A DNA stretch of 39,329 nucleotides from a virus (IMGVR_UViG_3300042907_000073:1-39329); one strand, 5' to 3'. Numbered from the stretch's first letter, positions 12,972 to 36,300 are shown. The notes: generated from the letters alone by a model not told the origin. Numbers and translations: made by a program.

Positions 12972-13582
12972 TATTTATGTCTCCCTTTCACCCAACCTTC
13001 TGGAACTTCATTAGGATTAAAAGCTCTGTTTATTAGACCATTATTATAAACGTTTTTACCATACATATTATTCAATTCGCCTTTTTGTGAAACTTTTTTA
13101 ATTTCAGACATTTTCTTTTTAACGTCTTCCCTCAAAGCTGGATTTGGATTTTTGTAACCACTTTCGAATAATTTTTTACGAGCGATTTTCATATTCAATT
13201 TATGTTGTTCTGATTTTGGACCACGTAATTTTTGTTTTGTTTTTTCAGAACGTTTTTTTCCAATATGAGTTAAAGTGCCTTTTAGTGCACATTCTGAATC
13301 GATTGATATGTTATCGGTTTTATTAATCCATTTATCATTTTTCACAACTTTCATTTTCTTTAAAACTTTTTCTTCCCAAAGACGAGCTTTATTTTCATCT
13401 CCAAAAGTTTTTCTTATTTGAATGATATCCGGATCGCCGTATAGATCAGCGAAAGTTTTTACATGTTTTGAAGAAGTAAAATATGTGACCCATAAATCTT
13501 CTGGACGACAGTTCTTACTAAATCGAACTCCGTAATAAAATTTATTAAATTTACTCCAGCCGATAAGATAGGTATATGCCAT
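12971..13582 (-). CDS. GIY-YIG homing endonuclease with NUMOD3-like DNA-binding repeats
   Basis: This 203-aa Lys-rich protein is not part of the T4 head/tail set. Residues 4-21 (YTYLIGW...KFYYGVRF) are the two halves of the GIY-YIG motif, R20 is the catalytic arginine and E70/E71 the likely metal-binding glutamate. Residues 108-140 (GKKRSEKTKQKLRG...) and 150-176 are NUMOD3-type nuclease-associated DNA-binding segments. The tail NGLINRAF...VPEGWVKGR is common to such enzymes. It sits between genes 19 and 20, is more AT-rich than its neighbours, and its stop forms TAATG with the gene 20 ATG. A hairpin lies just before its ribosome site. Mobile free-standing nucleases of this type are frequent in T4-like phages. 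Confidence 0.87.
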   Translation of the reverse strand: MAYTYLIGWSKFNKFYYGVRFSKNCRPEDLWVTYFTSSKHVKTFADLYGDPDIIQIRKTFGDENKARLWEEKVLKKMKVVKNDKWINKTDNISIDSECALKGTLTHIGKKRSEKTKQKLRGPKSEQHKLNMKIARKKLFESGYKNPNPALREDVKKKMSEIKKVSQKGELNNMYGKNVYNNGLINRAFNPNEVPEGWVKGRHK

Positions 13583-13638: not shown

Positions 13639-13645
13639 TATTTAG
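13639..13645 (-). promoter_or_regulatory. Possible late box CTAAATA before the homing endonuclease gene
   Basis: The box overlaps the gene 19 stop codon and lies 56 bases before the GIY-YIG ATG, upstream of the hairpin. The distance is longer than at other sites, and the match is partly explained by the stop codon. It is only a weak candidate. Confidence 0.25.
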
Positions 13646-14253
13646 ATTACCGGACCAATGTCGGTTTGAGCTAGATATGGTGTTACCTTACCAGCTGTCT
13701 TGACAGAAGCATCTTCAACCACTGGTAGCCAGTAGTCATAAGCAAAGTTAACAGTGAACTCTTCAATAGCATTCTGTGTATCCCATCCAAGAGTTACACC
13801 GCTAATCTGAGTTGGGAAAGCACCAACTAGCTGATAAACACGAAGAACTTCTCCGTCCTTAGCAAACTGGGTTACATCAACAGCAAATGCCTTATACTGC
13901 TCAAAAGAGGCTTCAGGTAGACGAATGTTAGTCTGCATAGTGTTGATAGCATTCTGCCATGCTTCAAACATTGAACGTACAGAGAAATCTTCATCGTTCA
14001 TTACTGTGATTGACCAATCAGCAAAAGATCTTTCACCAGCAACTTTAATCTTACGACCGAAGTATGGTACTTCAATCTGAGAAATTGTTGACTCAGGAAG
14101 TTCTGCTGCTCTACAAGTGAACACTAGCTTTTTGAATGCTTCTGGGTTCAAAGGTAGAGTAGGTGGTGGTGTTACTTGGACTTGGAAGAGGGAGGGGCGT
14201 GCGCCCCCCCATGGTAGTCCGTTTACTTTAAAAGAGTTAATATTAAAAGCCAT
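13642..14253 (-). CDS. 19: Tail tube protein gp19
   Basis: The product is 203 aa (T4 gp19 is 163 aa). gp19 hexamers stack to form the inner tail tube. The order 18-19-20 is as in T4. Sequence features of the tube fold include an N-terminal NINSFKVNGLPWGGARPSLF, FTCRAAELPESTISQIEVPYFGRKIKVAGE, then DWSITVMNDEDFSVRSMFEAWQNAI and a late VNFAYDYW strand. Codons 13-18 contain seven consecutive G residues and a strong hairpin (14194-14207), odd for this AT-rich genome. A late-type box AATAAATA lies at 14280-14287 and AGGAG 7 bases before the ATG. Confidence 0.93.
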   Translation of the reverse strand: MAFNINSFKVNGLPWGGARPSLFQVQVTPPPTLPLNPEAFKKLVFTCRAAELPESTISQIEVPYFGRKIKVAGERSFADWSITVMNDEDFSVRSMFEAWQNAINTMQTNIRLPEASFEQYKAFAVDVTQFAKDGEVLRVYQLVGAFPTQISGVTLGWDTQNAIEEFTVNFAYDYWLPVVEDASVKTAGKVTPYLAQTDIGPVI

Positions 14254-14279: not shown

Positions 14280-14287
14280 TATTTATT
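14280..14287 (-). promoter_or_regulatory. Late-promoter-like box AATAAATA for gene 19
   Basis: The minus-strand octamer differs from TATAAATA only in the first base. It overlaps the gene 18 stop and lies 26 bases before the gene 19 ATG, in the range of the other late boxes. T4 late promoters tolerate change at the first position. Confidence 0.5.
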
Positions 14288-16892
14288 AAAACTTACCGAT
14301 AACTTCAGAGAACTGAACACCAGTTGGGACAGCAACGAAGTTAAGCTGGATAAAGTTAATGCTTCTAGCAGGTTTAATATAGATGTCTCCAACAAACTGA
14401 TTGGTGTCAATAATTTGTGGAGTGTTATTAGTGTCGTCACATACAACATAGAAGTCCGTAATACCACGACGTCCCTTGATGGTGCGTAGGTATGGTGTTA
14501 CAAGATTTCTAAACTGTGCTCTAGTGAAAGCATCATTGAACTCGAATAGCTGATATTTAGCAGCAGTAGCAATTGCCTTCTCAAGAACAATAAACAATCT
14601 GCGAACGTTAATACGATCGAATGCAGATGGCTTATCCTGAAGTGTCTTATCTCCATAAAGAACAGTTCCCTGTCCTGGGAATGTTACAACAGGGTTGATG
14701 CCGTTGCTATAGAGAACGTCACGTTCAGCCTTGCGTGGGTTAAATGCTAGTTTCACAAGGTTCTTGATATGACCACGGTTGAAACCAGCTGGTGACCACC
14801 AAGCGTCATTTGTAGTATCTGTTCTTGCGCAGATACCAGCAATGTCACCATTTAGTGGGACCCAACGATAAACGTCGTTGTAACGGTCATACTGATACTT
14901 ATAACCTGAATCCATGATAGCATAAGAAGAACTGTTTAGAGCGCCTCTCCATGCCTTTAGATCCACAGCTTCATCGCCGACGTTATTAAGAACAGTTGAT
15001 CTTTCTGGAGATACTAGAACAACACAATCTCTTCTAGTTTCTGCTAGATTATCAATCAAGTAATTAGCAAGCTGATAACCTGATACAGTTCTACCTCCAA
15101 CTGAAGTAGTTCCACCGACTGGCTTTCCTTGGATAACCAATGAGATGTCAATGTCTTCAGCTGACTGGAATAGGTCATATGCTGCACCTAGAATGCCAAT
15201 TGTAGCTGTTGATTCATTTAAACCATCAGCACCAAGCGCAAAAGTGATATTTGCAGGGGCAGAAGAGGAGGCCGATACAACGTTTAGAGCAGTTGCCGAT
15301 GGAGCGCTACTACGATCGTTTGCCCAACGGATATAATTAGAATTCTGGTTAATTATATCTTTGTAGTAGTTACCTGTACCGTCGTTGTTCTTACCATCAG
15401 TAGCACGTGATAGACCCTTATAAACTTCAAGAATTGTTCCTGGAGTTCCGGTAAACTTACCACCATCGTCAACAACTACAACGTGAAGTTCATCCTGTGC
15501 AGAAGTATTACCGTTATAAAGAACGTAATCTGACTGACCAGGAGCAACATCAACAACGTTAAAGAATTCCCAATAACGCTGAACAGTGTTAGTTGTGAAG
15601 TTAGTTCTTAGTCTATATGGATCTTCAAAATCAATCTCAACCACTGTAGTATTTGCAACTAGAGTTGCATTAGCTCCAGAAGTATAAGATATATCAATCT
15701 CTTCACCAAATGGTGTCAAAGATAGTTTTAGACCTGAAGAATTAGCCTGAATGACGTTATAGTTAATACCCTGAGTCAAACCAGTGATCTGGCTATTACC
15801 AGCAGTGTTAGAATAGTTAACAATATCACCGTTTGAATAAGGATTATTGGCAATAGTGATAAAGTTAGTATTGCTAGAAACGTCTAGACCGCTGAAACCA
15901 ATAGTTGAAGTGTTAATGTAAGTTGAATTGCTACCTACAGAAACATTTTTAACCATCAAATACTGCTGATTAATTGAACTATTACCAGCTAGGATCTGAT
16001 CGCCGGCAGCTACTTTAGCAGCAACAGCGTTTGCAGCAGCATTTGTAGTGCCAGCAAACTTAATTGTTGCAACGTTTGAACCGAGGCGGAATTCCAGTAG
16101 AGCGTTTGCGGAAACGCCACTACCAGCAACGTTTGCACCAACTAGAGCAACATTTGAATTGAAACTATCAGCGTTATCGCAGATACCAATTCTTAGAGAA
16201 TTGCCCATTTCTCCAGGGAATCTTGCAACGTAAATAACGTCTGGATCGAAGTTTCCGTCCTTATCAGCATAGTCGTTATCATTCTTTACAATCTGATTTA
16301 CCAGATTAGCTACGAAAGAATTAGCCCCAAAAGCTGAAGAATTTGGTTCCATAGCTACAGAGGTATAAACTGAAACTGGATCAGCAAAATAGAAACTTAC
16401 GCCGTTCTGAGTAGCAGTAACATTGCTTGAAAGAGTTACAGAGCTTGAGTTCTTTGAGACAACAGAAATAGTTGATAGAACGTTAGTGTTTACTGAACTG
16501 TTACCAAATGTAATGTTAGCGTTTGAACACTGAGTTAGATACATACCAACTGTGATTGCAGTTGTGCTAGAAAGCAATAGAACGTTGTTTGCGCCAGATG
16601 TATTACCTGAAACAACTGGAGTTGCACCAGTAACGTCAGCAGCACGTGAAACCCATAGACGGTTTGTATATGATAGAAAGTTTGCAGCTGTGAAAAATGT
16701 TTCTCCGTTGAAATTGGTTGGTTTACCAAATCTAGAAACCAGTGCATTTTCAGAGTCGATTAGAACTCTTTCTCCGATTGGACCCCAACGGAATACGCCA
16801 GCAAAGGCGCCATCAGTTGTGGCGACTGAAGGAACGACTGTTGTAAGGTCGATCTCAGATACATTTACTCCAGGTGATAGTTGGAAAGCCAT
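14286..16892 (-). CDS. 18: Tail sheath protein gp18, enlarged
   Basis: The product is 868 aa against 659 in T4. gp18 makes the contractile sheath. The N-terminus MAFQLSPGVNVSEIDLTTVVPSV with FAGVFRWGPIGERVLI, and the C-terminal third (VSPERSTVLN, LKAWRGAL...YAIMDSGYKYQYDRYND, PAGFNRGHIKNLVKLAFNP, GINPVVTFPGQGTVLYGDKTL, FDRINVRRLFIVLEKAIA) are characteristic. The extra length lies in the middle: Asn/Ser/Ala-rich beta-like stretches, including a segment near 330-410 with NNPYSNGDIVNY and LTQGINYNVIQANSSG that resembles beta modules in phage fibres. These probably form domains on the outer sheath surface. A late box (16938-16945) precedes the gene. Confidence 0.96.
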   Translation of the reverse strand: MAFQLSPGVNVSEIDLTTVVPSVATTDGAFAGVFRWGPIGERVLIDSENALVSRFGKPTNFNGETFFTAANFLSYTNRLWVSRAADVTGATPVVSGNTSGANNVLLLSSTTAITVGMYLTQCSNANITFGNSSVNTNVLSTISVVSKNSSSVTLSSNVTATQNGVSFYFADPVSVYTSVAMEPNSSAFGANSFVANLVNQIVKNDNDYADKDGNFDPDVIYVARFPGEMGNSLRIGICDNADSFNSNVALVGANVAGSGVSANALLEFRLGSNVATIKFAGTTNAAANAVAAKVAAGDQILAGNSSINQQYLMVKNVSVGSNSTYINTSTIGFSGLDVSSNTNFITIANNPYSNGDIVNYSNTAGNSQITGLTQGINYNVIQANSSGLKLSLTPFGEEIDISYTSGANATLVANTTVVEIDFEDPYRLRTNFTTNTVQRYWEFFNVVDVAPGQSDYVLYNGNTSAQDELHVVVVDDGGKFTGTPGTILEVYKGLSRATDGKNNDGTGNYYKDIINQNSNYIRWANDRSSAPSATALNVVSASSSAPANITFALGADGLNESTATIGILGAAYDLFQSAEDIDISLVIQGKPVGGTTSVGGRTVSGYQLANYLIDNLAETRRDCVVLVSPERSTVLNNVGDEAVDLKAWRGALNSSSYAIMDSGYKYQYDRYNDVYRWVPLNGDIAGICARTDTTNDAWWSPAGFNRGHIKNLVKLAFNPRKAERDVLYSNGINPVVTFPGQGTVLYGDKTLQDKPSAFDRINVRRLFIVLEKAIATAAKYQLFEFNDAFTRAQFRNLVTPYLRTIKGRRGITDFYVVCDDTNNTPQIIDTNQFVGDIYIKPARSINFIQLNFVAVPTGVQFSEVIGKF

Positions 16893-21816: not shown

Positions 21817-22527
21817 TTAACTCCAATTAATTGTGACCCAACCGTTAGCTCCATTGCCTGGGGTGCCGGCGTTATAACCTCCAACATTTACTCCGCCACC
21901 CCCTCCGACGGTTACAGGATAAGACCCTGCCCAGACAGGAAACCCAGAAGTTATTTGATGTGACCATTGTTGAGTAACTTTTCCTCCAGCGCCGCCATTA
22001 CCACCGCTATATGCTGGTTGGAAGGCATAATTGAAATATCCGCTACCACCACCTCCACCAGCTCCTCCGCCTCCGGTTGTTACAGATCCTCCTGATCCTC
22101 CACCATTAGTACCTGCACCACCGAAACTTGCAAATCCACCGCCACCACCACCTGTCCCAGCAGTAGCAGATAATCCATTAAAAGAACTGTTGGCGCCACT
22201 GTTTCCTCCAGATCCGCCTTCGGCTATAGCAAAATAATATAAAAAAGCATAATAAGCGCCTTCACCACCACCACCGCCACCTGCCGCAACATTAGCAAAA
22301 ACTGTCTGGTATGGATATACTAACCATGAATATGAACCAGGAGTGCTGTAAGTATTACTTCCTGCCGCTGGTTTCCCATAACCAGTACTTATGGATATCG
22401 ATCCAGAAGGAACACCAAAAAGATATCTAGTGTTAGCTTCTCCAATAGAAATTTCAGAAGTGGCATTTCCTTTTGTTATAGTTGCGATATCTGAAAATGA
22501 TATTTGTCCGCTAGATGGTAATGCCAT
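21817..22527 (-). CDS. Glycine-rich adhesin-like tail protein
   Basis: This 236-aa protein opens with MALPSSGQISFSDIATI, a start I recall from many phage tail-fibre-associated proteins, and then TYSTPGSYSWLVY. Residues about 80-215 contain repeated runs of five to six Gly split by short aromatic or Ala/Ser segments. Runs like these form the polyglycine II helix bundles of the T2/S16-type gp38 distal adhesin. The end, GNGANGWVTINWS, closes a beta domain. A role in receptor binding at a fibre tip is likely but inferred. It is coupled by TAATG to the S74 fibre gene before it, which may be its carrier. The Gly codons make this a GC-rich island in the AT-rich genome. Confidence 0.78.
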   Translation of the reverse strand: MALPSSGQISFSDIATITKGNATSEISIGEANTRYLFGVPSGSISISTGYGKPAAGSNTYSTPGSYSWLVYPYQTVFANVAAGGGGGGEGAYYAFLYYFAIAEGGSGGNSGANSSFNGLSATAGTGGGGGGFASFGGAGTNGGGSGGSVTTGGGGAGGGGGSGYFNYAFQPAYSGGNGGAGGKVTQQWSHQITSGFPVWAGSYPVTVGGGGGVNVGGYNAGTPGNGANGWVTINWS

Positions 22528-24875
22528 TATTTACCTCTTTTTAATTCGTCTACTTCATTTTTGAGGTCTTTGATTGCTTCAATTAACAAAGCCACAATTC
22601 TATCATATTTAACCGCCTTAGTGCCGTCTTCTTTAGTTGCAACTACTTCAGGCAAAACCTTTTCAATGTTTTGAGCAATAACGCCGACATCATGTCTACG
22701 GATAAAGTATCCATCTTCACCACCACGAGCATCCATGAATTCCTGGGTCCAATCAAATTCTACGCCGTCAACAGCCATAACTTTTTCAAGAGCGTTTTCA
22801 ATTGGTTTTACATTTTCTTTGAAGATGGCGTCTGAAGTATAATAAGCTGTGATGTTATTATTTGCTCTAATTTCGCCAGCAGTTCCGGAAGCAGCAGTAC
22901 CAACACCAATTGAATTAAATTGTGAGTTCTGCGAAGTAGAAGTGAATGTTGCAGCACTTCCATCAATCGAGACGCCTGTGAGAGTTTGAGACCCTGTTGT
23001 TCTATTAATTGTCAGTGAAGTAGTGCCAATAAACATTGTTTGGTTTGTTGCTGCAGCGCCGATCTCACCAAGAGTCCATGAAACAGCAGCAGATCCATCA
23101 ACAGATTTACCAGTTGATCCGATAGTAATAGTTCTTGACGTACCCCATGTAGCAGTTGTAATAGCAGCAGAACCATTGAAGGCGGAACCATTAATGTTTC
23201 TAGAAGTAGCCAATGTGGCTGCACTGTTGACGTTAAGATTTCCTTCAGTCTTACCATAAGCTGTAGTGGCATTATTGACGTTAAGATTTCCTTCAGTCTT
23301 ACCATAAGCTGTAGTGGCATTATTGACGTTTAGTGTAGCCTCAGTTTTACCATAAGGACCAGTACTATTACCAATTAAAGTCGTTCCTACGTAATATGAT
23401 ACTGCATTAACGACTGTAGCATTGGCAGTAAATGCAGTTCCAACGGTATGACTAGCAGCGTTCATAGTTCCAGTGTGATAAACACCAGTGGCATTGGCAA
23501 TAAGAGATGTTCCAACAGTATGTGACGAACCGTTAACTACACCAGCGTAAACTGGTAGATAAGCAGCGACATTGGCGTTTAAGGTAGAATTAAGCTGATA
23601 GGAAGCAGCAGCTGTTCCTCCTAGATTTGTGGAGTTATTAGCTGTTAATGCGCTATTTACGTTTAGAGTGCCTTCAGTTTTACCGTAAGCTGTTGTGGCA
23701 TTATTAACGTTCAGATTGCCTTCAGTTTTACCATAAGCTGTTGTGGCATTATTGACGTTTAGTGTAGCCTCAGTTTTACCATAAGCATACGTAGCATTAT
23801 TAACGTTAAGATTGCCTTCGGATTTACCGCTAACAAATGACGTATTATTAGCAGATAAAGTTCCAATATATGTTGCATTAACATGAACGCCAGTGGCATT
23901 TACTACAGTACCAGTTCCTGGAGTAACAAACAATCCTAAAGAATTGGCAGTAATACCATTATTAGCTAGAACAGAAACCGTTCCGGATGTCGTGAATGGA
24001 CCGCCAGTTAGACCGTTACCAGTGCCAACAGAAGTTACAGTTCCTGCATTAACGTCATCAGCAGCCCAATAAGTGGCTGTACCATTAGAGTGAAGAACTT
24101 GGCCAGCGGTTCCGTAAGTGCCATTAGCAGAAAGGCCAGAACCTAATATTAGGTTAGCATTATACGTATAAACACCAGATATTGTAAATGCCGCAGTGGT
24201 ATTAACAACATTAGCTGGCATTCGAGCGTATGGAAGAACGCCTGTGGTTATATTAGTAGCATTGGTGTAATATGTTCCATGCTGACCATCCAAATAATCG
24301 GAGTTATTGGCGTTTACTGCACTATTAACATTTAGAGTGGCTTCTGTCTTGCCATAAGGTCCAGTAGCATTACCAATTAATGTTGCGCCAACATAATATG
24401 AAACGGCGTTGACGACTGTAGAATTGGCAGTAAATGCAGTTCCAACGGTATGACTAGCAGCATTAACAGAAGTAGCATTAACGATACCAGTATAAACACC
24501 AGTTCCATTAGAAACAGTTGCTGTGCCAATAGTTATTGAAGAACCATTGACAATACCAGTATAAACGCCAGTAGAGTTGGCAATTGTAGAAGTGCCAACT
24601 GTATGACTAGCAGCGTTCATAATACCCGTATGATAGACACCAGTAGTATTGGCGATAAAAGTCGTTCCGACAGAAACACTAGTGCTGGTATTAGCGAAAC
24701 CAACAATCGTTGTATTCCCGAGATAAACATCCCCTACAGTAGAAAGACGATGGGTGGGAGCCGAATTATTGATACCCACATTACCTGTAGCGGTAACAGT
24801 AACTGCTGTTCCTAGTAAGGTGGTGTTTGCGCCTGTTTCAAGACCGTTCTTTACGACGAAATTTTTATCTGCCAT
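22527..24875 (-). CDS. Tail fibre with C-terminal S74 intramolecular chaperone
   Basis: This 782-aa fibre begins MADKNFVVKNGLETGAN, a common anchor-type start. Residues about 60-600 are low-complexity repeats of Asn/Thr/Ala/Val units (SHTVGTA, YGKTEATLNVN, NNATTAYGKTEGNLNV) that resemble a long trimeric beta shaft. The last 102 residues form a peptidase S74-type domain: Ser681 and Lys686 in SDAIFKENV are five apart like the catalytic dyad of the endosialidase chaperone. Then come DGVEFDW, a GVIAQNIEKVLPEVV helix and a terminal coiled coil. Such domains fold the trimer and then cut themselves off. A late box lies at 24907-24913. The RBS is AGGGA. Confidence 0.9.
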   Translation of the reverse strand: MADKNFVVKNGLETGANTTLLGTAVTVTATGNVGINNSAPTHRLSTVGDVYLGNTTIVGFANTSTSVSVGTTFIANTTGVYHTGIMNAASHTVGTSTIANSTGVYTGIVNGSSITIGTATVSNGTGVYTGIVNATSVNAASHTVGTAFTANSTVVNAVSYYVGATLIGNATGPYGKTEATLNVNSAVNANNSDYLDGQHGTYYTNATNITTGVLPYARMPANVVNTTAAFTISGVYTYNANLILGSGLSANGTYGTAGQVLHSNGTATYWAADDVNAGTVTSVGTGNGLTGGPFTTSGTVSVLANNGITANSLGLFVTPGTGTVVNATGVHVNATYIGTLSANNTSFVSGKSEGNLNVNNATYAYGKTEATLNVNNATTAYGKTEGNLNVNNATTAYGKTEGTLNVNSALTANNSTNLGGTAAASYQLNSTLNANVAAYLPVYAGVVNGSSHTVGTSLIANATGVYHTGTMNAASHTVGTAFTANATVVNAVSYYVGTTLIGNSTGPYGKTEATLNVNNATTAYGKTEGNLNVNNATTAYGKTEGNLNVNSAATLATSRNINGSAFNGSAAITTATWGTSRTITIGSTGKSVDGSAAVSWTLGEIGAAATNQTMFIGTTSLTINRTTGSQTLTGVSIDGSAATFTSTSQNSQFNSIGVGTAASGTAGEIRANNNITAYYTSDAIFKENVKPIENALEKVMAVDGVEFDWTQEFMDARGGEDGYFIRRHDVGVIAQNIEKVLPEVVATKEDGTKAVKYDRIVALLIEAIKDLKNEVDELKRGK
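23228..23323 (-). repeat. 48-bp tandem direct repeat in the S74 fibre gene
   Basis: Two adjacent, essentially identical 48-base units begin at 23228 and 23276 and encode the 16-residue unit NNATTAYGKTEGNLNV. Related copies occur near 23685-23780 in the same gene. The unit length is a multiple of three, so gain or loss keeps the frame. Confidence 0.85.
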
Positions 24876-24925: not shown

Positions 24926-26566
24926 TTATCCACCGAAAGCAGGTCTGATTTCGATTGGTGATAGAACGTTAGTCGTGCTTTCCCATGTCACCATGTTATG
25001 AGCATTATATCCTGTCATGAACATACGACCATCTGTGCCGAAGAATATGTAACCGAATCCAGCACTTGTCGTCGAATATGTTCCGATGCTATTACAAACA
25101 AAATCTGCTGGTAATTTAACTGAGGTCCAGGATGTGATTGGATTTGTAGTATTACCTAATCCACATTGACCATGCTCATTATAACCCACTGAATATAATA
25201 TACCACCCTTTCTATAAAACGAAGTTCTTCTATAGCCATATGATGCAGAATCGTGTCCATCACAGAATATTTTTTCGACGCCTGTTGTTACTAATGTTGG
25301 CGTGCCATTATTTGTAGTAGTACCGTTACCAACTTGACCGTTACCATTATGACCCCAAATATAAAGATTACCATCGGCAAACAGAACCATTATTGTTCCT
25401 GGTCCTCCACCATATCCAGAAACGTCAGATATTCTCGCTGCTGGTAAGACAGGAGTTTGTGGTGTTGAATAATTCGTGTCTGTGACTGTACCCAATCCTA
25501 AGGATCCGTAACCATTATTTCCTGCAATTCTAAAATAGGTAGTTGTTCCGTCGTCAAGTAACATACCAATCCAAGAACGAGTATTATATGCAGTATCTGC
25601 AAATCCTAATCCACATATTAGTTTAACCAATCTTCTACCGCTGTTTACCACACCGCCCCAGTTTGTTGTAACGTCTGTAAGAACAGGACGGTTTGTGGTG
25701 TCGCCAGTTCCTAACTGCCCGTGTCCGTTATATCCGCAAGCCCAAATTTTATATTCAGCAGTCTGAATAACTATTCCGCCAGTGGATCCGCCTATGTTCC
25801 AAACGCTAATAGCCCCAAAGGAAAAAGGAATTACTGTAAATGATGATCTATTAGTAGTATCACCAACGCCTAATTGACCGCTGCCATTATAACCAGCAGC
25901 ATATAGATAACCGTCTCTTTTTTTGATAACCATCTTGGATGATGCATCAAATCCATTCAATGTTGGATGATGATATACTGCAACAACATTAGTTGCAGCA
26001 AGAGTGGGTATACTGGTTGCTGTGGTATTACCTAAACCACATTGACCATGAGCGTTATTACCCCATGTGTAGAGATTGCCATTGGCATATAAAGCAAAAC
26101 AAAACTGAGCATACATACCATAGTCAATAGGTTCTGTTGTTTCGGCAGGATTATTGAAATGTGTAAATCTATCTGCGCTTTCTATTGATGATGTGCCAGA
26201 AGCGCCTCTACCAGTATAAACGCTCCAACCACCGCCAGTAGATGATGCTATAAAAGGTCTGCTGCCTGACCATATTGCAACGCTTCCGAGTCCGCTTTCG
26301 CTGGCCATTCTGGTCAAACTCATACCAAGGCTATTAACCTTTGGGTAGTTCAAAACACTAGTTCCTGCTGGGTCAAACCAAAATGATGCATTAGCAGAAT
26401 CAACGAATCCGGAAGCTGACGCCATACTACCAGTGTTAGTAGTTTGAAACCTATTAGCAACGACAACATTGTTAGTTGTTATCGCTATGGTAGATGTGTT
26501 GGTGCCTTCAATATTGACGCTACCATTGGATAGGAAGTTTATTTTGTCCAGTTTTACTGTTGACAT
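24926..26566 (-). CDS. Tail fibre with seven RCC1-type beta-propeller repeats (copy 2)
   Basis: In this 546-aa protein, residues 1-75 look like a fibre attachment segment, including SANASFWFDPAGTSVLNY, a degenerate form of the Y-D-x-x-N-T-x-[FY]-Y-[IV]-D-P motif common in phage fibres. From about 160 to the end are seven RCC1-like repeats with the W/A-G-Y/N-N-x-x-G-Q-x-G core, such as LYTWGNNAHGQCG, LYAAGYNGSGQLG, IWACGYNGHGQLG, YFRIAGNNGYGSLG, LYIWGHNGNGQVG, LYSVGYNEHGQCG and a degenerate MFMTGYNAHNMV. Seven repeats would close one seven-bladed propeller. A receptor-binding head is the likely role, by inference. It is a paralogue of the gene at 26917-28548. Confidence 0.88.
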   Translation of the reverse strand: MSTVKLDKINFLSNGSVNIEGTNTSTIAITTNNVVVANRFQTTNTGSMASASGFVDSANASFWFDPAGTSVLNYPKVNSLGMSLTRMASESGLGSVAIWSGSRPFIASSTGGGWSVYTGRGASGTSSIESADRFTHFNNPAETTEPIDYGMYAQFCFALYANGNLYTWGNNAHGQCGLGNTTATSIPTLAATNVVAVYHHPTLNGFDASSKMVIKKRDGYLYAAGYNGSGQLGVGDTTNRSSFTVIPFSFGAISVWNIGGSTGGIVIQTAEYKIWACGYNGHGQLGTGDTTNRPVLTDVTTNWGGVVNSGRRLVKLICGLGFADTAYNTRSWIGMLLDDGTTTYFRIAGNNGYGSLGLGTVTDTNYSTPQTPVLPAARISDVSGYGGGPGTIMVLFADGNLYIWGHNGNGQVGNGTTTNNGTPTLVTTGVEKIFCDGHDSASYGYRRTSFYRKGGILYSVGYNEHGQCGLGNTTNPITSWTSVKLPADFVCNSIGTYSTTSAGFGYIFFGTDGRMFMTGYNAHNMVTWESTTNVLSPIEIRPAFGG

Positions 26567-26569
26567 GAC

Positions 26570-26914
26570 TTAGATCGGCAATCCTGGATTATAAGTTGCT
26601 TCATATTCACGACAAAATGCTCTGGCGATCGCTCGTTCGGTTTTAATCGCTTCAAGATCTTCTCCTGGCTTTGGAGTATAATCTATGAACATCTTATGAT
26701 CTGTTTTATCTAGATAGATCTTATAATCAATATATTTTTCATACTCTGTCTTTTCAGGAACGAAAGCAACTAATTCACCATCGATCAATTTAAAATGTTG
26801 ACCTTCTGGAACAACACCATCGTATTCAAACCAACCATCTTCAAGCATAGCTTCTGTTGCTACTTGACCACCAAGTTGAACAATATTTTCGCTGATATAT
26901 TTAATATAAGTCAT
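26570..26914 (-). CDS. Small unrecognised protein between the two RCC1 fibre genes
   Basis: This 114-aa hydrophilic protein, MTYIKYISENIVQL..., has a central WFEYDGVVPEGQHFKLIDGELVAF beta part and a C-terminal helical part rich in Lys, Asp and Glu (KIYLDKTDHKMFIDY, AIKTERAIARAFCREYEAT). It has no signal peptide or membrane segment. It is packed with two to three base gaps between the two RCC1 fibre genes. Position and size suggest a fibre assembly chaperone or capping protein, but no known family signature is visible, so the function stays open. Confidence 0.7.
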   Translation of the reverse strand: MTYIKYISENIVQLGGQVATEAMLEDGWFEYDGVVPEGQHFKLIDGELVAFVPEKTEYEKYIDYKIYLDKTDHKMFIDYTPKPGEDLEAIKTERAIARAFCREYEATYNPGLPI

Positions 26915-26916
26915 TA

Positions 26917-28548
26917 CTATGCTCCGAGTGGTAACGTTATTTGAATAGGCGCTAGACAGTTTGTTGTTGTTTCTGCTGTTACATTTTGTTGAGCATTATA
27001 ACCCCAAGCATACATTCTACCATCTGTTCCGACTGCTAGATATGTAGCGACTGGGTATGTAGAATGAAAACTTCCAAGATCGGCTACAGTAAAATCTCCA
27101 GGAAGTAATACTCTAGTAAATGATGTTCTCTGGGTTGTATCACCAACCCCTAGTTGTCCATAACCATTATAACCAGATGAGTATAGTCCATCAGCCTTTT
27201 TATAAAAAGTAGCAGAAACGTAACTTTGAACATATTCTGTATAGTCATAATATATACCAGTAACGGCACTCGCTCTCAATGTTGGCGTACCATTATCTGT
27301 AGTTGTTCCATTTCCTAATTGTCCATAAGCGTTATAGCCCCAATTATACATATCACCATTTGCCATTAGACACATAACAGTTCCTGGACTTCCTCCGCCT
27401 CCAGAAATAGTTGAGATACGACCAGCGCCAACAGTAGGAGTAATAGGAGTTGTAATGTTGGCTGCTGCCACAGCACCATTGCCAATGGTTCCCCAGTTAT
27501 TTGCTCCAGCCGATCTTAAATAAGTTGTGGTGTTATCATCAAGTAACATAATAGCCCAGCATTGTGCGGAAACACCAGAACCATTATGATATGCAGCCCC
27601 TCCAATAATTTTTTTGATAACACGAGCAGAACCTGTCACACCACCCCATGCGGTTGTAACATCTACAGGAGTAGATTGGTTTACTGTGCCTCCATTACCA
27701 AGATTGCCATAACCATTATAACCACAAGCCCAGATAGAGTTATCAGCTTTTTGAAAGAACGTGAAACCATACTGCGCACCAATAGGCCAGACGTTGGTTA
27801 CAGTTGTTCCAAGACCTGTTAACTGATAAAACGAGTTTCTTTGTGTTACAGTTGTATCACCTAGCTGTCCATAACCATTATATCCTGCAGCATAGATGTA
27901 GTTATCGGTTTTCTTAATAAACAATCTACCGTAATATGTATCAACATCACTTTGTGATGGATGATCAAAAACATTAGTAACACCAACTTGACTTAGAAAC
28001 GGAACTACTCTATTGGTTGTATCACCGGCTCCTAATTGACCATAACCATTATAACCCCATGTGTATAGATTACCTGTAGAAAATAATGCATATGCAGAGG
28101 ATCCATATACACCAGCCTTTGTAAGCGTTCCTGTTTCACCTGGAAAATTTACTGCTCTAAAACTGTTCATTCCAAATACTGCTGACGTTCCTGTCGCACC
28201 TCGGCCGGTTGTATGATTTGCCCATGTGGCTGAAGTTCCGCTTGTAGTAAACACTCTACCATTAATAACTAACATCATGGAATTCGTACCGTTTTTTGAT
28301 ACATATGTGATGTTATTAAGACCCATCTGCGTAACTCTAAGGTTATGTATAACTGAGTTAGCAGCAGGATCAATGTAAAAAGATGTATTACTGGAATCAT
28401 AATATAATGGACAATAAACAGCGTTCGCAGTGAGGCGACCTGTGATATTAACGTTAGCAGAAGTAACGTTTAGGTTGGCTCCATCATAATAAATCTTATT
28501 GGTGCCAACTGCGTCGAATTGAACGTTAGAAACTAATAGTGTAGACAT
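26917..28548 (-). CDS. Tail fibre with seven RCC1-type beta-propeller repeats (copy 1)
   Basis: This 543-aa protein is similar in plan and length to the 546-aa gene downstream. Residues 1-80 form the fibre part: NVTSANVNITGRLTANAVY and then YYDSSNTSFYIDPAANSVI, a widespread phage fibre motif. RCC1-like repeats begin near 159: LYTWGYNGYGQLG, IYAAGYNGYGQLG, IWACGYNGYGNLG, YLRSAGANNWGTIG, MYNWGYNAYGQLG, LYSSGYNGYGQLG, and MYAWGYNAQQNV. The blade cores are nearly constant while the linking loops differ from those in copy 2. RCC1 propellers bind proteins or ligands on loop faces, so variable loops fit receptor recognition. The ATG overlaps the previous stop as TAATG. Confidence 0.88.
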   Translation of the reverse strand: MSTLLVSNVQFDAVGTNKIYYDGANLNVTSANVNITGRLTANAVYCPLYYDSSNTSFYIDPAANSVIHNLRVTQMGLNNITYVSKNGTNSMMLVINGRVFTTSGTSATWANHTTGRGATGTSAVFGMNSFRAVNFPGETGTLTKAGVYGSSAYALFSTGNLYTWGYNGYGQLGAGDTTNRVVPFLSQVGVTNVFDHPSQSDVDTYYGRLFIKKTDNYIYAAGYNGYGQLGDTTVTQRNSFYQLTGLGTTVTNVWPIGAQYGFTFFQKADNSIWACGYNGYGNLGNGGTVNQSTPVDVTTAWGGVTGSARVIKKIIGGAAYHNGSGVSAQCWAIMLLDDNTTTYLRSAGANNWGTIGNGAVAAANITTPITPTVGAGRISTISGGGGSPGTVMCLMANGDMYNWGYNAYGQLGNGTTTDNGTPTLRASAVTGIYYDYTEYVQSYVSATFYKKADGLYSSGYNGYGQLGVGDTTQRTSFTRVLLPGDFTVADLGSFHSTYPVATYLAVGTDGRMYAWGYNAQQNVTAETTTNCLAPIQITLPLGA

Positions 28549-29118: not shown

Positions 29119-29658
29119 TTATACTCCTAAAGCCATCCAATAAAATGTTGAAGTGCCGTCAGCACCGTGAGCAATCGTGAAACCAGTAGTGCTAGAAACA
29201 GAGATGGAATCAATACCGCTTGAGCCAGTATTGATAGCTTGTCTATTTGTTATAGTTATTGAATAAAGAGTTGTAAATGCTATAGGAAATGTTACAGCTA
29301 CCGAACTGTCCTGTGCAACGCTTGCTGATGTTCCCCACTGTATTAACAAACCATTCGGTAATCTAGAATAACCATTAGCAGCAATAGAAGAAGTGCCTAT
29401 ATTTACTGTGTTTGAAGAGAATGTTGACACCCCAGTGCTGGTAACATTAAGCAACACTGCACTTGTTTGCATATTATATAATCTAAAATCTGGAGTTGTT
29501 GTTGAACCAAAGGTGTCAATAGCATAAACATTAGCGTTATCGGATGATCTTCTGAAACTCAATTGACCACCTTCACTGGCGGTATCAACCCTATCTAATA
29601 TAAGATCAGGAGTTGAATGAGCTGTTATAGATCCAGATCCATTAATAATTACTGGCAT
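29119..29658 (-). CDS. Fibre tip protein with gp53-like C-terminal domain
   Basis: In this 179-aa protein the N-terminal MPVIINGSGSITAHSTPDLILDRV segment is a frequent phage fibre start. The C-terminal 85 residues hold GYSRLPNGLLIQWGTSASV, then VAVTFPIAFTTLYSITIT, and the end FYWMALGV; this is the gp53-like tail fibre tip pattern (G-[YW]-x-[KR]-L-P-[SN]-G-L-[IL]-[IL]-Q-W-G). Between them lies a short beta region with SFRRSSDNANVYAID. It is one of a run of short fibre proteins with different tip folds. An AAGGAT site lies before the ATG. Confidence 0.85.
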   Translation of the reverse strand: MPVIINGSGSITAHSTPDLILDRVDTASEGGQLSFRRSSDNANVYAIDTFGSTTTPDFRLYNMQTSAVLLNVTSTGVSTFSSNTVNIGTSSIAANGYSRLPNGLLIQWGTSASVAQDSSVAVTFPIAFTTLYSITITNRQAINTGSSGIDSISVSSTTGFTIAHGADGTSTFYWMALGV

Positions 29659-29667
29659 AGTTTATCC

Positions 29668-32600
29668 TTATACGATTGTCCAAGTCGATCCTGATGGAAC
29701 GGTTATTGTAACACCACTATTTATAGAGATAGGTCCAGCTGACATAGCATTTTTACCAGTGGTTATTGTATAGCTTGTTGCTACGTTCTGTGAGCACTCA
29801 ACGAAAGCATCAACGCCCATGTTACCAGCAACTTGAAGTTTAATCAGTGGAGCAGTAGTGCCTATACCAACGTTACCGTCCTGTTTAATATACATCAAGT
29901 CTCTATAGGTTGAAGCAGTTAACTGCTGCATAAACCTAAAGCCAGTATTAGCATAAGTCGTTGGATTCATAGGATTCCAAATATTCACTTCCGCATGTCC
30001 GGCAGAGAAGTTCCAACTGAACGCTGTACCTATAGTTCCAAGAGTAGGATATGTTGCAGTGTTAAATCCTCCAACATACGTATAACCGCCACCAAGATAA
30101 GCAGAACCGTTTACTGATAATTTATCGGCTGGTGCTGAGTTACCTATACCAAAGTTACCATTGGCAACATGATAAGCAGCTGTTCCAAATGTAGCAGTAT
30201 TAGTAGAAACTACCAACGAAACCGTATTGGTCATGGTAGCATTAGCAGTAAAGGCAGTTCCTACTGTATGACTAGCAGCGTTCATCGTTCCTGTATGATA
30301 AACGCCAGTGGCATTGGCAACAAGAGATGTTCCTACTGTATGACTAGCAGCGTTCATCGTTCCTGTATGATAAACACCAGTAGCATTGGCAACAAGAGAT
30401 GTTCCTACTGTATGACTAGCAGCGTTCATCGTTCCTGTATGATAAACACCAGTAGCATTAGCAATGAACGATGTACTAACAGTGTGAGATGATCCATTAA
30501 CAACGCCAGTATATACCGGAAGATAAGCAGCGATATTCGCATTTAACGTAGAATTAAGCTGGTATGAAGCAGCTGCGGTGCCACCAAGATTAGTTGAGTT
30601 ATTGGCTGTTAATGCGCTGTTGACATTGAGTGTAGCTTCTGTCTTACCATAAGGGCCAGTAGTGTTACCGATTAAAGTAGTGCCGGCATAGAATGCAGTA
30701 GAAGTATTAGTAATGCCGGTTATAGTAGCACCGCCAGCACCAGTGATCAATCCTGATGCATTAATCGTGTTAGCGGAAACAACCCAACGAGAGGTTGCGT
30801 TACCTAATAATAGAGTGTTGGAGTTAGGATATACAGAACCAGTAAACACACCGCCGCCGCCATCAATGTTGTAACTCCAAGACATAGCAGTGGTTCCAAG
30901 AGTATCGGTGGTCTTGAAATCATTATCAAATAATCTTCCACCATTCACAGTTCCTGCATCAATGGCAACTATTGAAGAAGCAATTCTAGAAGAACTATTT
31001 GCATCGGTTGCTCTTGTTAGCGTCCAAGCATATGCGGCAGCAGAACCAGTATTTGAAACATAGAAAATACCGTTTTGCGCTGTATTAGATTGATCTTTAA
31101 CAAGCAGTCTATCGTTCAAAACAAGAGTGACACCATCCTGTGCTGGAAGCGCAACAAGACCACCAGTAAGAACTTGAGCAGTTGCAGAAGCAGCGGAAAG
31201 GTCAGCAGTAGTTGCTGCACGACATGATTTCTTGAAAGTGGCCTCTGGTAGATACGCCATATCAATTTGCGTAAATACTGGCACAGTTCCATTGGAAGCA
31301 AGAACGAATGTATTTGTACCAGCAGCAGTAATAGCCATACCAGTGGCATTAGAATAAACAACGCCGCCAGAAACCGGAGTCAATGAAGAGTTTGTACCAC
31401 CTCTGGCAGCAGAAAGTGTTCCTGTTGATATATTGGTGGCGTTGGTGTAATAAGCGCCGTGTTGGCCGTCTAGATAATCAGCGTTATTCGCTGTTAGAGT
31501 AGCGACGTTTGCCGAAAGGCCAGCTGTTGTTTGATAACCGGAAGCAGCAGTGCCACCAAGATACGCAGCGTTATTGGCCGTGATATTCCAAGTACCAGAA
31601 GCGCCAGTTCCTGTTAATGTTGGTGCATAACTGTTATAATTCTGACTAGTTAATGGTTTAGCTGCAATGATTGGCCCTGATTCAACGGTATCAAACGCAG
31701 TAACAAACGAAATAGCCCAACCTGATGACCAGTTAGCTTCATTGTATCCAGCATAGCCGCATTGAACTTCGGTAATGAATACTTGTGGATAAGCCCATGC
31801 AGTAGCAAGTTCGCCAATCCAAATACAGTTACCAGTGCCATCAGAACCAAATCTAACGTTAATATCACCACCGCCCATAGTGCTTTGCGTGGCGAATATA
31901 TGATTTCCGAAAACGCCAGCGCCATAATTATAAGCACCCATTTCGAGCGTTCTGGCTGTACCTGCGTTAGTACCGGCATATTCATAAATCTTAACCGTAA
32001 TTCTCATCATGGTATTGCTATCATTAACTGCTGTAGGCAATTTGATCTTAATAGCACCAGTCACAGAAGCGGTAGACGATACAGAAGCACCGCCACCAGG
32101 ATTTGTTATTCTGTATCCGCTAGGTTCAGTTAGACCATTGGTGGATTTAGCAATGTTTGTAAAGGTAGCATTGCTTGCCGTTATCGTTCCTGTGAAAGTA
32201 GGAGAAGCCAATAAAGCATAAGAGGCAGCAGCCGTTCCACCTAGATTGGTTGAGTTATTAGCAGTTAATGCACTATTGACGTTGAGAGTGGCCTCTGTTT
32301 TACCGTATGGACCAGTAGTATTACCGATAAGAGTTGTGCCGGCATAGTAAGAAACCGCATTAACAACCGTGGCATTAGCTGTAAATGCCGTGCCTACTGT
32401 ATGAGACGATCCATTGACTACACCAGTGTAAACACCAGTGGAGTTGGCAATAGTAGATGTACCAACAGTATGAGAAGATCCATTAACTATACCAGTGTAT
32501 GTTGGTAAATAAGCTGCAATATTAGCATTTAATGTAGAGTTCAACTGATAAGAAGAAGCTATTGTACCACCTAGATATGAGGCATTATTAGCTGTACCAG

Positions 32601-33375
32601 AAGTGTTGATACTCCAAGTTCCTGTAGAATTTGTACCATCGGTGAATGCAAGATCTTTATATGTTGTATATGCAGAAGTGTTGCCTGTAGTTAGATTTGT
32701 CCAAGCTGCTTGGTAAACACGAACACCAATAGCAGACTTATTAAACATTAAAAGGTTATCTGATCCCCCAGAAGAATCAGTATAACTTCTCATATGAAGG
32801 AAGTCGGCATATGGTGAAGTATTATTGTTATTAAAAGAAGTAAATCCAAAACGAAGAGTTTGTGAAGGAAAATCATTTGCTATGATAATTCTATCATCAA
32901 TTCTTAGAAGCAGATTAGCATAAAGAGAACTGTTGACGTTCAGATTACCTTCTGTCTTACCGTATGGACCTGTAGAGTTAGCAATAAGGGTAGATCCAAC
33001 ATAATATGTTACCGCATTAACTACAGTAGCGTTGGCAGTAAATGCCGTTCCTACTGTATGCGACGAACCATTAACAACGCCAGTGTATGTTGGTAGATAA
33101 GAAGCTATATTGGCATTTAATGTAGAGTTTAATTGATATGAAGCAGCAGCAGTTCCACCTAAATTGGTCGAATTGTTAGCAGTTAAAGCAGAATTGACGT
33201 TTAGTGTAGCCTCAGTCTTGCCATAAGGACCAGTAGAGTTAGCGACCAATGTAGAATTAGAATAAATGCCAGTGGCATTGGCTGTGAGTATGGTAAAGGT
33301 CGAATTCGCACCAATTTTGGCGTTTGTCGATTCAATATAACTATTGACTGTAGAATTACCTACAAATAAGGTCAT
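29668..33375 (-). CDS. Giant repetitive tail fibre protein (1235 aa)
   Basis: This Asn/Thr/Ala/Ser-rich protein is built from recurring units (NSSHTVGTA, NATGVYHTGTMNAA, YGKTEATLNVNSALTANNSTNLGGTAAASYQLNSTLNANIA) shared with the 1290-aa and 782-aa fibres. Near residues 715-845 lies a distinct module (LPEATFKKSCRAATTADL...GVTLVLNDRLLVKDQSN...NGIFYVSN) recognisable in many phage tail proteins. The C-terminus TSYTITTGKNAMSAGPISI...GVTITVPSGSTWTIV is a common fibre ending. Residues 968-1039 hold three 24-residue copies. The ATG overlaps the stop of the 1290-aa gene (ATGA). It is likely a trimeric long fibre or fibre-like appendage; its exact place on the virion is unknown. Confidence 0.85.
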   Translation of the reverse strand: MTLFVGNSTVNSYIESTNAKIGANSTFTILTANATGIYSNSTLVANSTGPYGKTEATLNVNSALTANNSTNLGGTAAASYQLNSTLNANIASYLPTYTGVVNGSSHTVGTAFTANATVVNAVTYYVGSTLIANSTGPYGKTEGNLNVNSSLYANLLLRIDDRIIIANDFPSQTLRFGFTSFNNNNTSPYADFLHMRSYTDSSGGSDNLLMFNKSAIGVRVYQAAWTNLTTGNTSAYTTYKDLAFTDGTNSTGTWSINTSGTANNASYLGGTIASSYQLNSTLNANIAAYLPTYTGIVNGSSHTVGTSTIANSTGVYTGVVNGSSHTVGTAFTANATVVNAVSYYAGTTLIGNTTGPYGKTEATLNVNSALTANNSTNLGGTAAASYALLASPTFTGTITASNATFTNIAKSTNGLTEPSGYRITNPGGGASVSSTASVTGAIKIKLPTAVNDSNTMMRITVKIYEYAGTNAGTARTLEMGAYNYGAGVFGNHIFATQSTMGGGDINVRFGSDGTGNCIWIGELATAWAYPQVFITEVQCGYAGYNEANWSSGWAISFVTAFDTVESGPIIAAKPLTSQNYNSYAPTLTGTGASGTWNITANNAAYLGGTAASGYQTTAGLSANVATLTANNADYLDGQHGAYYTNATNISTGTLSAARGGTNSSLTPVSGGVVYSNATGMAITAAGTNTFVLASNGTVPVFTQIDMAYLPEATFKKSCRAATTADLSAASATAQVLTGGLVALPAQDGVTLVLNDRLLVKDQSNTAQNGIFYVSNTGSAAAYAWTLTRATDANSSSRIASSIVAIDAGTVNGGRLFDNDFKTTDTLGTTAMSWSYNIDGGGGVFTGSVYPNSNTLLLGNATSRWVVSANTINASGLITGAGGATITGITNTSTAFYAGTTLIGNTTGPYGKTEATLNVNSALTANNSTNLGGTAAASYQLNSTLNANIAAYLPVYTGVVNGSSHTVSTSFIANATGVYHTGTMNAASHTVGTSLVANATGVYHTGTMNAASHTVGTSLVANATGVYHTGTMNAASHTVGTAFTANATMTNTVSLVVSTNTATFGTAAYHVANGNFGIGNSAPADKLSVNGSAYLGGGYTYVGGFNTATYPTLGTIGTAFSWNFSAGHAEVNIWNPMNPTTYANTGFRFMQQLTASTYRDLMYIKQDGNVGIGTTAPLIKLQVAGNMGVDAFVECSQNVATSYTITTGKNAMSAGPISINSGVTITVPSGSTWTIV
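30257..30472 (-). repeat. Three tandem copies of a 72-bp repeat in the 1235-aa fibre gene
   Basis: Near-identical 72-base units start at 30257, 30329 and 30401 and encode the 24-residue unit NATGVYHTGTMNAASHTVGT plus SLVA. Differences between copies are one or a few bases. A partly diverged copy of the unit occurs in the S74 fibre gene around 23410-23520. The units keep the reading frame. Confidence 0.93.
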
Positions 33376-36300
33376 TGCATTTCTTCCAATTTAAATTTGA
33401 ATTTTTTACCATTTTTATTATTTATAATGTATAACTCACTTTCACCCTCTTGGATAGTCCAGTTGCCAGTGGTTCCATCAATGTCATTACCTCTAGTTCT
33501 TTCGTTAGATAGATGTAAGTCGCCTGTATAAACGTTGGCCCAACGGAGTGATGCAGAACCAAGATTATAAGAGTTGTCACCTGATGGCATGATATTACCA
33601 GCAACGACAAGTTTATCTGCTGGTGTTGTGTTACCAACGCCTACGTTACCATTAGAAACAAAATAAGTTCCTGTTCCAATAGTAAATGTGTTACTAGAAG
33701 TATTAGTTGTAACAGTAACAGCGCTGTTAACATTTAGAGTGGCTTCAGTCTTACCATAAGGACCAGTAGAGTTACCGATAAGAGTAGAACCAGAATATAT
33801 AGAGCCAATAGTTCTAAAGTTACCAGTTGCAGAAGCTAACTCGGCAACAACCGAAGGAGTGGTTGATGTTGCTGTTCCGCTTTCCCAAGTCCAACCATAA
33901 AGCGCATTATTTTCAATAAATGATCTTCTTGCCCATGAGGTAACATAAGTTCCCGAAGGCGCTGTTACTGTCCCTGTCCAACCTTGGCTTGCTCCAGCAG
34001 GTGCCATGTAATCTTGCCAAGCTGTATATCCAGAGTTATACCAATTGATACCACGTGCTGCTGCAGCAGATCTATCTAAAAATAATACAGGGGTTTTTGT
34101 AGTAGTTGAGTTTGCAACAAAAGAAGAACCAACAGTGATAGATGAACCATTAACAACTCCGGTATAAAGACCACTAGAATTAGCGATAGTTGATGTACCA
34201 ACTGTATGACTAGCAGCATTAACCGTTCCGGTATGGTAAACGCCTGAAGTATTTGATACTAACCAATTTGTAGAAGTATTACCAAGATACAGAGTATTAG
34301 CTTGGAAATTAGCTATTTGGAAAGTAGTATTTGTTGTATCAATGTTAACATTAGCATCTGGTTCTGGCTTATAACCATCAAAGACTTTCCATGTTCCATC
34401 TGAAGCATCTCGGAAAATACCAGTATGGGCATAACCCAAAGAATTGCCTGTGCTATTATAATTAGCTACTATACCGGTATCTTCGTTATCTATTGAATTA
34501 TTAGAGTTTAGATAGATAAAGTTATCAACAACAGATAATGTGTTTGCGCCAACAACATTAACATTACCAGAAATATTCAAACTACCAGTAAGCGTTAATG
34601 TGCTGAAAGTAGGACTATCTGTAGTTCTAACATTCTGATCCATACGGTATGGAAGTCTAGCTTCTGCTAAAGTTCCAGTGTTGATATTAGTGGCATTGGA
34701 AGCAAATACAGTAGCATTAGAATAAGCTGTCGCCGCATTACCGGTAATAGCCGCATTGGCTGTAAGTATCTTACCATCAACATAAGAAACAGCGTTAGTG
34801 TAAGCTGTCGCCGCATTACCGGTAATAGCCGCATTGGCTGTAAGTATCTTACCATCGGTGTATGATACAGAGTTAGTATATGCTGTTGCTGCGTTACCTG
34901 TGATAGCTGCATTAGCGGTTAATATCTTACCATCAACATAAGACACTGCATTAGTGTAAGCAGTAGCAGCGTTACCTGTAATAGCTGCATTAGCGGTTAA
35001 TATCTTACCATCAGTGTAAGATACTGCGTTAGAATAAGCAGAAATAGCAGCTGACTGTGCAGATGCCGCTCTAGTGTTAGCGTCTATTGCTCTATCATAA
35101 GCATTTTTAACTGTATTGGCTACTGGAATGAATAATATAGAAGTATTAGTTACTGAATCTAATCTTAGGCCATTAGTGTAAGATACTGCATTAGTGTAAG
35201 CAGTGGCGGCGTTACCGGTTATTGCCGAATTAGCAGTTAGTATCTTGCCATCAGTGTATGATACAGCATTAGTATAAGCAGCCGCTGCAGCTGTTTGGGC
35301 TGAAGCAGCACGAGTGTTAGCGTCGATAGCTCTATCGTAAGCATTTTTGACGGTATTAGCTACTGGAATAAAGGTAATAGAAGTATTTGTTACAGAATCT
35401 AATTTCAAACCATCAACATAAGACACTGCATTAGTGTATGCAGTGGCGGCATTACCTGTAATAGCAGAGTTAGCTGTTGCTATTTTTGAATCCGTATATG
35501 ATACAGAGTTAGTATATGCTGTTGCTGCGTTACCTGTAATAGCCGCATTAGCAGTTAGTATCTTGCCATCAGTGTATGATACAGCATTAGTGTAAGCAGT
35601 AGCCGAATTGCCTGTAATCCAAGATACGAAGTTGGCCGTAGTTCCGGAAGAATTACCTAGATACGATGCAGTATTTGAAGTTATAGAGTTATTAACATTT
35701 AAGTTAATTTCTGTCTTACCATAAGGTCCAGTGGTATTACCTATTAATGTTGATCCGGCATAATAAGATACTGCATTAACTACTGTAGCATTAGCAGTAA
35801 ACGCTGTTCCAACAGTAAACGAAGAAGCGTTAACGATTGATGCGTCTAGCTTACCGGTGCTTGGAACATAATACAACTTAGTTGTAGAAACAACAGCGTT
35901 TGTCCAAGCGCCAGAAGAACCGTTTGCTAGACCAATGTAATAAGTTTGAGTATCTGTATTGTTAGCGTTTAGTGTAGCGCCAGCAGTGGCCCAATAAGTA
36001 GATGAACCATTAGAAAGTAAAGATTGACCAAAAGACCCATAAGAACCATTTGCGGATAATCCAGAAGAACCTAGTGTAACATCGCCGCCTAAGAATGTTG
36101 TACCATTAACCGATAGTTTATCGGTGGGATCCGTATTACCAATACCAATATTACCACCAAGAGGGTTAAGGATAATTGAATAATATACAGCACCACTTGC
36201 TGAATAACCAGACTGAATCCATTGATGAAAATTTGATTGTTGACCAAATGCTAGATAATTTCCGCCAAAACCGCCCAAATAAGCATAAGCATTAGATTTA

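Follow-up and report, generated by a model that had tools for sequence, protein, structure and literature searches.

Why would a tailed phage carry, almost side by side, two genes for proteins with RCC1-type repeats, and what is the role of the small gene that lies between them? The question is raised by a virus record of 39,329 bases (the window hereafter, meaning the whole stretch that was analysed), whose main genes are all on the minus strand. The phage is T4-like, as indicated by gp13-gp23, UvsY, a UvsW-type helicase, the gp55 late sigma factor and a gp46/47 pair, and its structural set in the window comprises the major head protein, scaffold, protease, portal, sheath, tube, terminases and neck proteins. 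The head protein is nearest to that of Stenotrophomonas phage DLP6 (72%), then to that of Sinorhizobium phage phiM12 (65%).

A tail-fibre operon with two RCC1-type genes

The two genes, referred to as A and B, and a 114-aa gene follow one another in the order A, 114-aa gene, B with gaps of 2-3 bases, the 114-aa gene starting 2 nt past the stop of A and ending 3 nt before B. They belong to the tail-fibre operon of the phage, with fibre-type genes on both flanks (Table 1). The coordinates, strand and lengths (543, 114 and 546 aa) given in the initial annotation were exact. The 3,623 bases of this region show zero differences from one near-identical contig, and a B-specific search of viral contigs returned this contig only. 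A gene equivalent to that of the neighbouring 189-aa virion-type protein precedes the RCC1 gene in a related locus (L010), so that synteny is kept between the window and this relative.

The RCC1-like repeats already proposed for both genes are borne out by PF00415, matched with E-values of 2e-30 (A) and 2e-33 (B); the two proteins score 114.9 and 105.3 bits against a gathering cut-off of 21.7. Furthermore, RCC1-type PDB chains match protein A with E-values down to 1e-23, and the best phage family for both proteins is PHROG_20500 'tail protein' (E 7e-59 for A and 1e-51 for B). By Pfam score and predicted fold, A and B thus belong to the RCC1/BLIP-II beta-propeller superfamily. Their suspected paralogy holds, since they align end to end with 42% identity (E 1e-122).

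Upstream of the repeats, both proteins have N-terminal segments of about 76-83 residues, in which YYDSSNTSFYIDP and FVDSANASFWFDP are variants of the phage tail-fibre motif YDxxNTGYYxDP. This motif is present in more than 100 viral stretches, and 9 of 10 sampled proteins that carry it match PHROG tail-fibre families. Among the fetched RCC1 loci, it occurs in A, B and the near-identical contig only and is therefore not family-wide. No homologue of the N-terminus of A was returned by tblastn from 50,697 phage records, and a PDB search with either N-terminus gave no significant hit, so that the assignment of these segments as stems rests on the motif and on the position in the operon. As monomers, both segments were modelled by AlphaFold2 with low confidence.

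Table 1. Features of the RCC1-type fibre region, in positions of the window
Feature	Position	Strand	Remark
Gene A, 543 aa, fibre-type N-terminus and predicted eight-bladed RCC1 propeller	26917..28548	(-)	
Gene B, 546 aa, paralogue of A, fibre-type N-terminus and predicted eight-bladed RCC1 propeller	24926..26566	(-)	
114-aa gene, accessory of clade-I RCC1 fibres, putatively assembly-chaperone-like	26570..26914	(-)	Context and one Pfam-positive relative
Fibre-type gene with S74	22527-24875		Same operon as A and B
Fibre-type gene with gp53-like C-terminal domain	29119-29658		Same operon as A and B
Fibre-type gene	29668-33375		Same operon as A and B
Neighbouring virion-type protein, 189 aa	28548..29117	(-)	Overlaps the start of gene A
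Gene A residues 1-76, candidate stem/attachment segment	28321..28548	(-)	No confident monomer fold, pLDDT < 50
Fibre-stem motif YYDSSNTSFYIDPAANSVI, A residues 49-67	28348..28404	(-)	Variant of YDxxNTGYYxDP
Fibre-stem motif FVDSANASFWFDPAGTSVLN, B residues 54-73	26348..26407	(-)	
A residues 77-540, predicted eight-bladed RCC1-type propeller, 32 strands	26929..28320	(-)	AlphaFold2, anchors
B residues 84-543 (about), predicted eight-bladed RCC1-type propeller, 32 strands	24938..26317	(-)	AlphaFold2, anchors

Blade number, framework and loops

The seven repeats, and hence seven blades, counted in the initial annotation have to be replaced by eight per protein. Indeed, alignment of the units on their anchor glycine places the eight anchors of A at residues 104, 165, 222, 276, 348, 404, 459 and 516, and those of B at 169, 225, 278, 349, 405, 461 and 519 in addition to position 110. 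The units are spaced by 53-72 residues, and a tail of 27 residues extends beyond the last anchor. Unit 1 is degenerate in A, in B, where it is without its glycine, and in the rest of the window clade; it is plain in the lake-phage group (TDGSVRxWGRG), and seven blades are thereby ruled out. The eight anchor columns are occupied, weakly at some columns, in all 29 of the 29 propellers compared.

AlphaFold2 models built with 19 relatives predict a propeller for both proteins, as the initial annotation had anticipated, with eight A-B-C-D sets of four strands, 32 in total (pTM 0.81 for A and 0.75 for B; propellers mostly at pLDDT 80-97). With eight units and 32 strands, neither protein is a canonical seven-bladed RCC1 of the Ran exchange factor type. 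The predicted chain of protein A starts with strands A and B and ends with strands C and D, an order that agrees with the 2+2 strands by which RCC1-like domains close (PMC8458387), and the propeller of A would thus form a closed ring.

UVR8, RCC1 and BLIP-II have the RCC1-type blade and fold in common with protein A (Z of 29, 21 and 14.6, respectively), and so have the HERC2 RLD and RPGR. Superposition of the predicted models on UVR8 gives VIA Z scores of 29.6 for A (rmsd 4.2, 348 aligned) and 28.4 for B (rmsd 4.5, 347 aligned). The fit to RCC1-fold chains with seven blades is poorer (TMq about 0.5, rmsd 4-5 A), and the top PDB matches included no chain of this fold recognisable as eight-bladed. 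Human RCC1 itself is described as seven-bladed (via PMC8458387), whereas the window proteins have a predicted eight blades, on a candidate fibre stem and in a phage tail context. The best viral structural matches include the 'tail fiber protein' of Littlefix and the 'T7 tail fibre protein-like N-terminal' protein of PollyC (TMq 0.74-0.78), whose rings match the window heads at 2.5-3.1 A; over the ring, the model of B (TMq 0.76) lies at 3.1 A from Littlefix and 2.5 A from PollyC (489 columns).

Nearly constant blade cores and strongly differing loops had been described for the two proteins, and this description stands in part. Between genes A and B, identity is highest in strand C (0.71), followed by the C-D connection (0.53), the B-C connection (0.52), the D-A loops (0.46), strand D (0.45), strand B (0.40) and strand A (0.33), and it is lowest in the loops joining strands A and B (0.24), a value as low as this being reached in 8 of 453 circular shifts. 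The constant framework consists of strand C and the long C-D segment (GYNGYGQLG and following). Variability is concentrated in the strand A-B loops, not confined to them: the loop-biased variation expected among homologues is seen in the wider sets (23/458 and 33/458 circular shifts), but the bias is modest and strands A and B vary as well.

Where core residues are identical between genes A and B, the codon is shared in 51 of 111 cases (0.459, against 0.43 expected); blades within each gene give 0.527 and 0.465, against 0.44 and 0.42 expected. This match at chance level rules out a recent duplication or gene conversion, and it indicates that the duplication is old, that the copies are not being homogenised and that conservation is due to selection on the protein. 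A maximum-likelihood tree groups A, B and L010 (97/93), the branching order among the three being unresolved.

Relatives in other phages and the small partner gene

A scan of IMG/VR yielded 78 loci, or 79 when the near-identical contig is counted a second time. In 34 of the 79 loci with matches, which are not independent since many contigs are close relatives, two or three RCC1 genes stand next to one another, with gaps of mostly 0-42 bases. In the tree, the three RCC1 copies of one locus (L011) are each other's closest kin and form a clade of their own, so copies have been made repeatedly; in a second large group, the two tandem copies fall in two old and separate orthologous clades, and pairs thus stay distinct.

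The window clade (12 sequences, support 100/99) brings together T4-like, T7-like and other phages. The heads of the Pseudomonas phages PollyC, Ppr_SeaP1-4 and Littlefix (PHROG_20500 type), with about 30-39% identity to those of the window, belong to this clade (100/99) and have eight anchors. PollyC and the SeaP phages each yielded a single head gene, versus two in the window. The PollyC/SeaP/L095 group also differs from the window in having a T7-type N-terminal stem, PF03906 (L095, 32.8 bits versus 25.2; PollyC and SeaP4 just under the cut-off). Other relatives carry the stem of a P2-type collar fibre (PF12571, Phage_tail_fib; L013) or a collagen-like one (L012). Exchange of a C-terminal domain between unrelated stems looks like the behaviour of a receptor-binding head and points to a transferable receptor-binding cassette. 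Together with the tail-fibre operon and the stem motif variants, these fusions agree with the earlier view that RCC1-type propellers form heads on fibre stems.

The occurrence of RCC1 in phage tails is less unusual than first implied, RCC1 fibres being already known in Littlefix, PollyC and SeaP1-4. Propellers of this type are also reported in multicopy arrays in jumbo and other coliphages (W70, GAP32, 121Q, PBECO4 and phAPEC6). According to the accounts of these virions, three tandem RCC1 proteins of W70 (W70_237-239) were detected by mass spectrometry (PMC11370258), as was GAP32 gp1, an RCC1 structural protein (PMC5259590); 13 homologues are listed for 121Q in the same article. The GAP32- and PBECO4-type proteins (360-400 aa) match the window heads more poorly (TMq about 0.5). 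The coliphage proteins are usually annotated as DNA-condensing, and the portions of these articles that deal with them report no partner gene. In the open-access literature, we found no paper on RCC1 phage proteins as receptor-binding heads, on the count of eight blades or on the partner gene.

The 114-aa gene was initially described as separating the two fibre genes, and comparison with relatives shows it to be more than that. Homologues lie directly 3' of related RCC1 genes in T4-like, T7-like and other phages, namely in L010, L011 (third copy), L012, L095, PollyC and the SeaP phages, as in the window, and stop/start overlaps of four bases occur among the RCC1 gene-partner pairs of relatives. 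Among 2.9 million viral contigs scanned with a profile, four partner loci were confirmed, all of them adjoining RCC1 genes on the 3' side. Likewise, in the phage collection, the six records with a partner match all have it behind RCC1 genes, a location that lends credit to their weak E-values (0.008-0.09). Leave-one-out profiles recover the partner members with E-values of 5e-7 to 4e-28, the exception being L013 (0.46), and no other ORF scored better than E 0.01 among 13,745 ORFs from 215 loci, a set that also took in the second RCC1 group and control loci with the fibre motif. In bacterial and archaeal genomes, the profile scan gave no confirmed relative and hence no prophage copies at this sensitivity. 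The 114-aa gene is thus a conserved and dedicated partner, not a spacer.

The shared part of the partner family is N-terminal, spans about 55 residues and falls outside Pfam at the thresholds used; the PollyC/SeaP partner is a 55-aa version without the C-terminal half. The longer L011 homologue matches PF16778, Phage_tail_APC, with 49.6 bits (cut-off 26.6), whereas the 114-aa protein of the window has no Pfam match up to E 5, PF16778 included. T4 gp37/gp38 and Mu/lambda Tfa are pairs of a tail-fibre tip and its dedicated helper, in which a small gene lies directly behind the fibre-tip gene, as in the window. Most likely, the 114-aa product is an assembly chaperone or a tip cofactor for this type of head, serving both A and B.

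Function of the RCC1 heads

It is likely, in our judgement, that A and B are adhesin subunits at the distal end of the tail fibre with RCC1 receptor-binding heads, in which a constant framework carries variable loops, served by a dedicated small partner and descended from an old tandem duplication. Their N-termini would attach to the fibre stem or form it, perhaps as trimers, and the C-terminal eight-bladed propeller would be the head that binds the receptor. Strand C and the GYNGYGQLG/C-D segment may hold the propeller ring together, while the face rich in variable strand A-B loops would be the one that touches a molecule on the cell surface. The small gene product, whether as assembly chaperone or as tip cofactor, would act on these heads. 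Divergence of the strand A-B loops fits differing specificities of A and B, and the duplication has probably left the phage with two heads of different preferences.

The annotation usually attached to such genes, 'regulator of chromosome condensation' or 'DNA condensation protein', suggests instead that RCC1 proteins organise DNA within the capsid or act on chromatin-like structures of the host. PHROG_4219, 7220 and 16766 are classed as DNA metabolism, and the phAPEC6 article, where it turns to its eleven RCC1-like proteins, offers the guess that they order DNA (PMC7247149). However, the DNA-condensing label is inherited with the fold, and UVR8, HERC2 and RPGR, seven-bladed proteins of this fold with quite other roles, are closer in structure than human RCC1 is. 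The placement of A and B among tail-fibre genes and the relatives in which the propeller is joined to a T7, P2 or collagen fibre stem also speak against a DNA role, to which we attach only a very slight probability. Many phage genes are labelled as regulators of chromosome condensation and filed as DNA metabolism; on present evidence, those of this group probably encode tail-fibre adhesin heads, which host-range predictions would thus overlook at present. A reservoir for recombination, in which blades or loops are shuffled between A and B, had also been put forward for the second copy. Tandem copies are common and the L011 trio forms its own clade, but the chance-level codon match between A and B leaves no room for recent conversion, the blades within each gene hardly differ from expectation, and the tandem copies of the second large group keep to separate orthologous clades; we regard this reading as very improbable.

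Two further readings give the propeller another task. Function cannot be deduced from the fold alone, and some phage tail-tip propellers are enzymes (sialidase-type tailspikes, e.g. K1F). A glycan depolymerase is nevertheless improbable here, the RCC1/BLIP-II propellers of known function being binding proteins (PMC9218822). Alternatively, the propellers could be virion adhesins of low specificity, for mucus, polysaccharide, particles or decoration, and the primary receptor binder could then be the product of another gene of the operon, which holds the other fibre-type genes listed in Table 1. The many RCC1 copies of jumbo coliphages, such as the set listed for 121Q (PMC5259590), would suit a multi-copy accessory adhesin. 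In relatives, however, the propeller occupies the C-terminus of T7- and P2-type fibres, the usual site of the main receptor-binding tip, and we consider the low-specificity reading rather unlikely.

Returning to receptor-binding heads as the preferred reading, the eight-bladed RCC1 scaffold, with its conserved framework and variable strand A-B loops, would suit study as a binding scaffold, and the partner gene offers a handle for producing soluble heads. We give an even chance to the broader proposition that eight-bladed RCC1 heads and their small partner gene make up a mobile receptor-binding cassette, which would have moved among tailed phages of T4-like, T7-like and other types whose stems are unrelated, and would have been repeatedly duplicated in tandem, giving one phage several grips.

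Repeat number in the S74 fibre shaft

The S74 fibre encoded by the window is 782 aa long versus 766 aa in the near-identical contig IMGVR_UViG_3300042337_000047, the latter having one 16-residue repeat fewer, namely one NNATTAYGKTEGNLNV unit (48 bases) around window positions 23269-23356. The repeat count of this fibre shaft thus varies in-frame, and no difference is found between the same two contigs across A-114-B, that is, the two paralogous fibre genes with predicted eight-bladed RCC1 propellers and the 114-aa gene lying between them.

Other structural genes of the window

Family scans run on the window returned a significant match for neither of the two giant fibre-type genes, both of which carry large in-frame tandem repeats. 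The tail sheath protein reaches 868 aa, compared with a length of 496 for its matching phage family profile, PHROG_23, and its sequence likely harbors a long insertion separating the two ends that match this profile.

Further features of the window
Feature	Position	Remarks
Homing/HNH endonuclease-like gene	12971-13582	flanked by portal gene and tail-tube gene
Tail-tube-type gene	5920-6441	one of two
Tail-tube-type gene	13642-14253	one of two
Tail sheath gene	14286-16892	
S74 fibre gene	22527-24875	
Giant fibre-type gene, 1235 aa	29668-33375	tandem repeats of 72 bases at 30257-30464
Giant fibre-type gene, 1290 aa	33372-37244	tandem repeats of 78, 156 and 240 bases at 34713-35618

RCC1 proteins in other viruses and their public annotation

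Four other virus loci (L019, L022, L059, and L025) contain single ORFs of 1059-3183 aa with 16 to 24 copies of the RCC1 motif, which is more than one propeller holds. The phage RCC1 families PHROG_4219, 7220, and 16766 are publicly categorized under DNA metabolism, a label that looks inherited from the fold. In contrast with this filing, virions contain RCC1 family members, and there are fusions of related heads to fibre stems.
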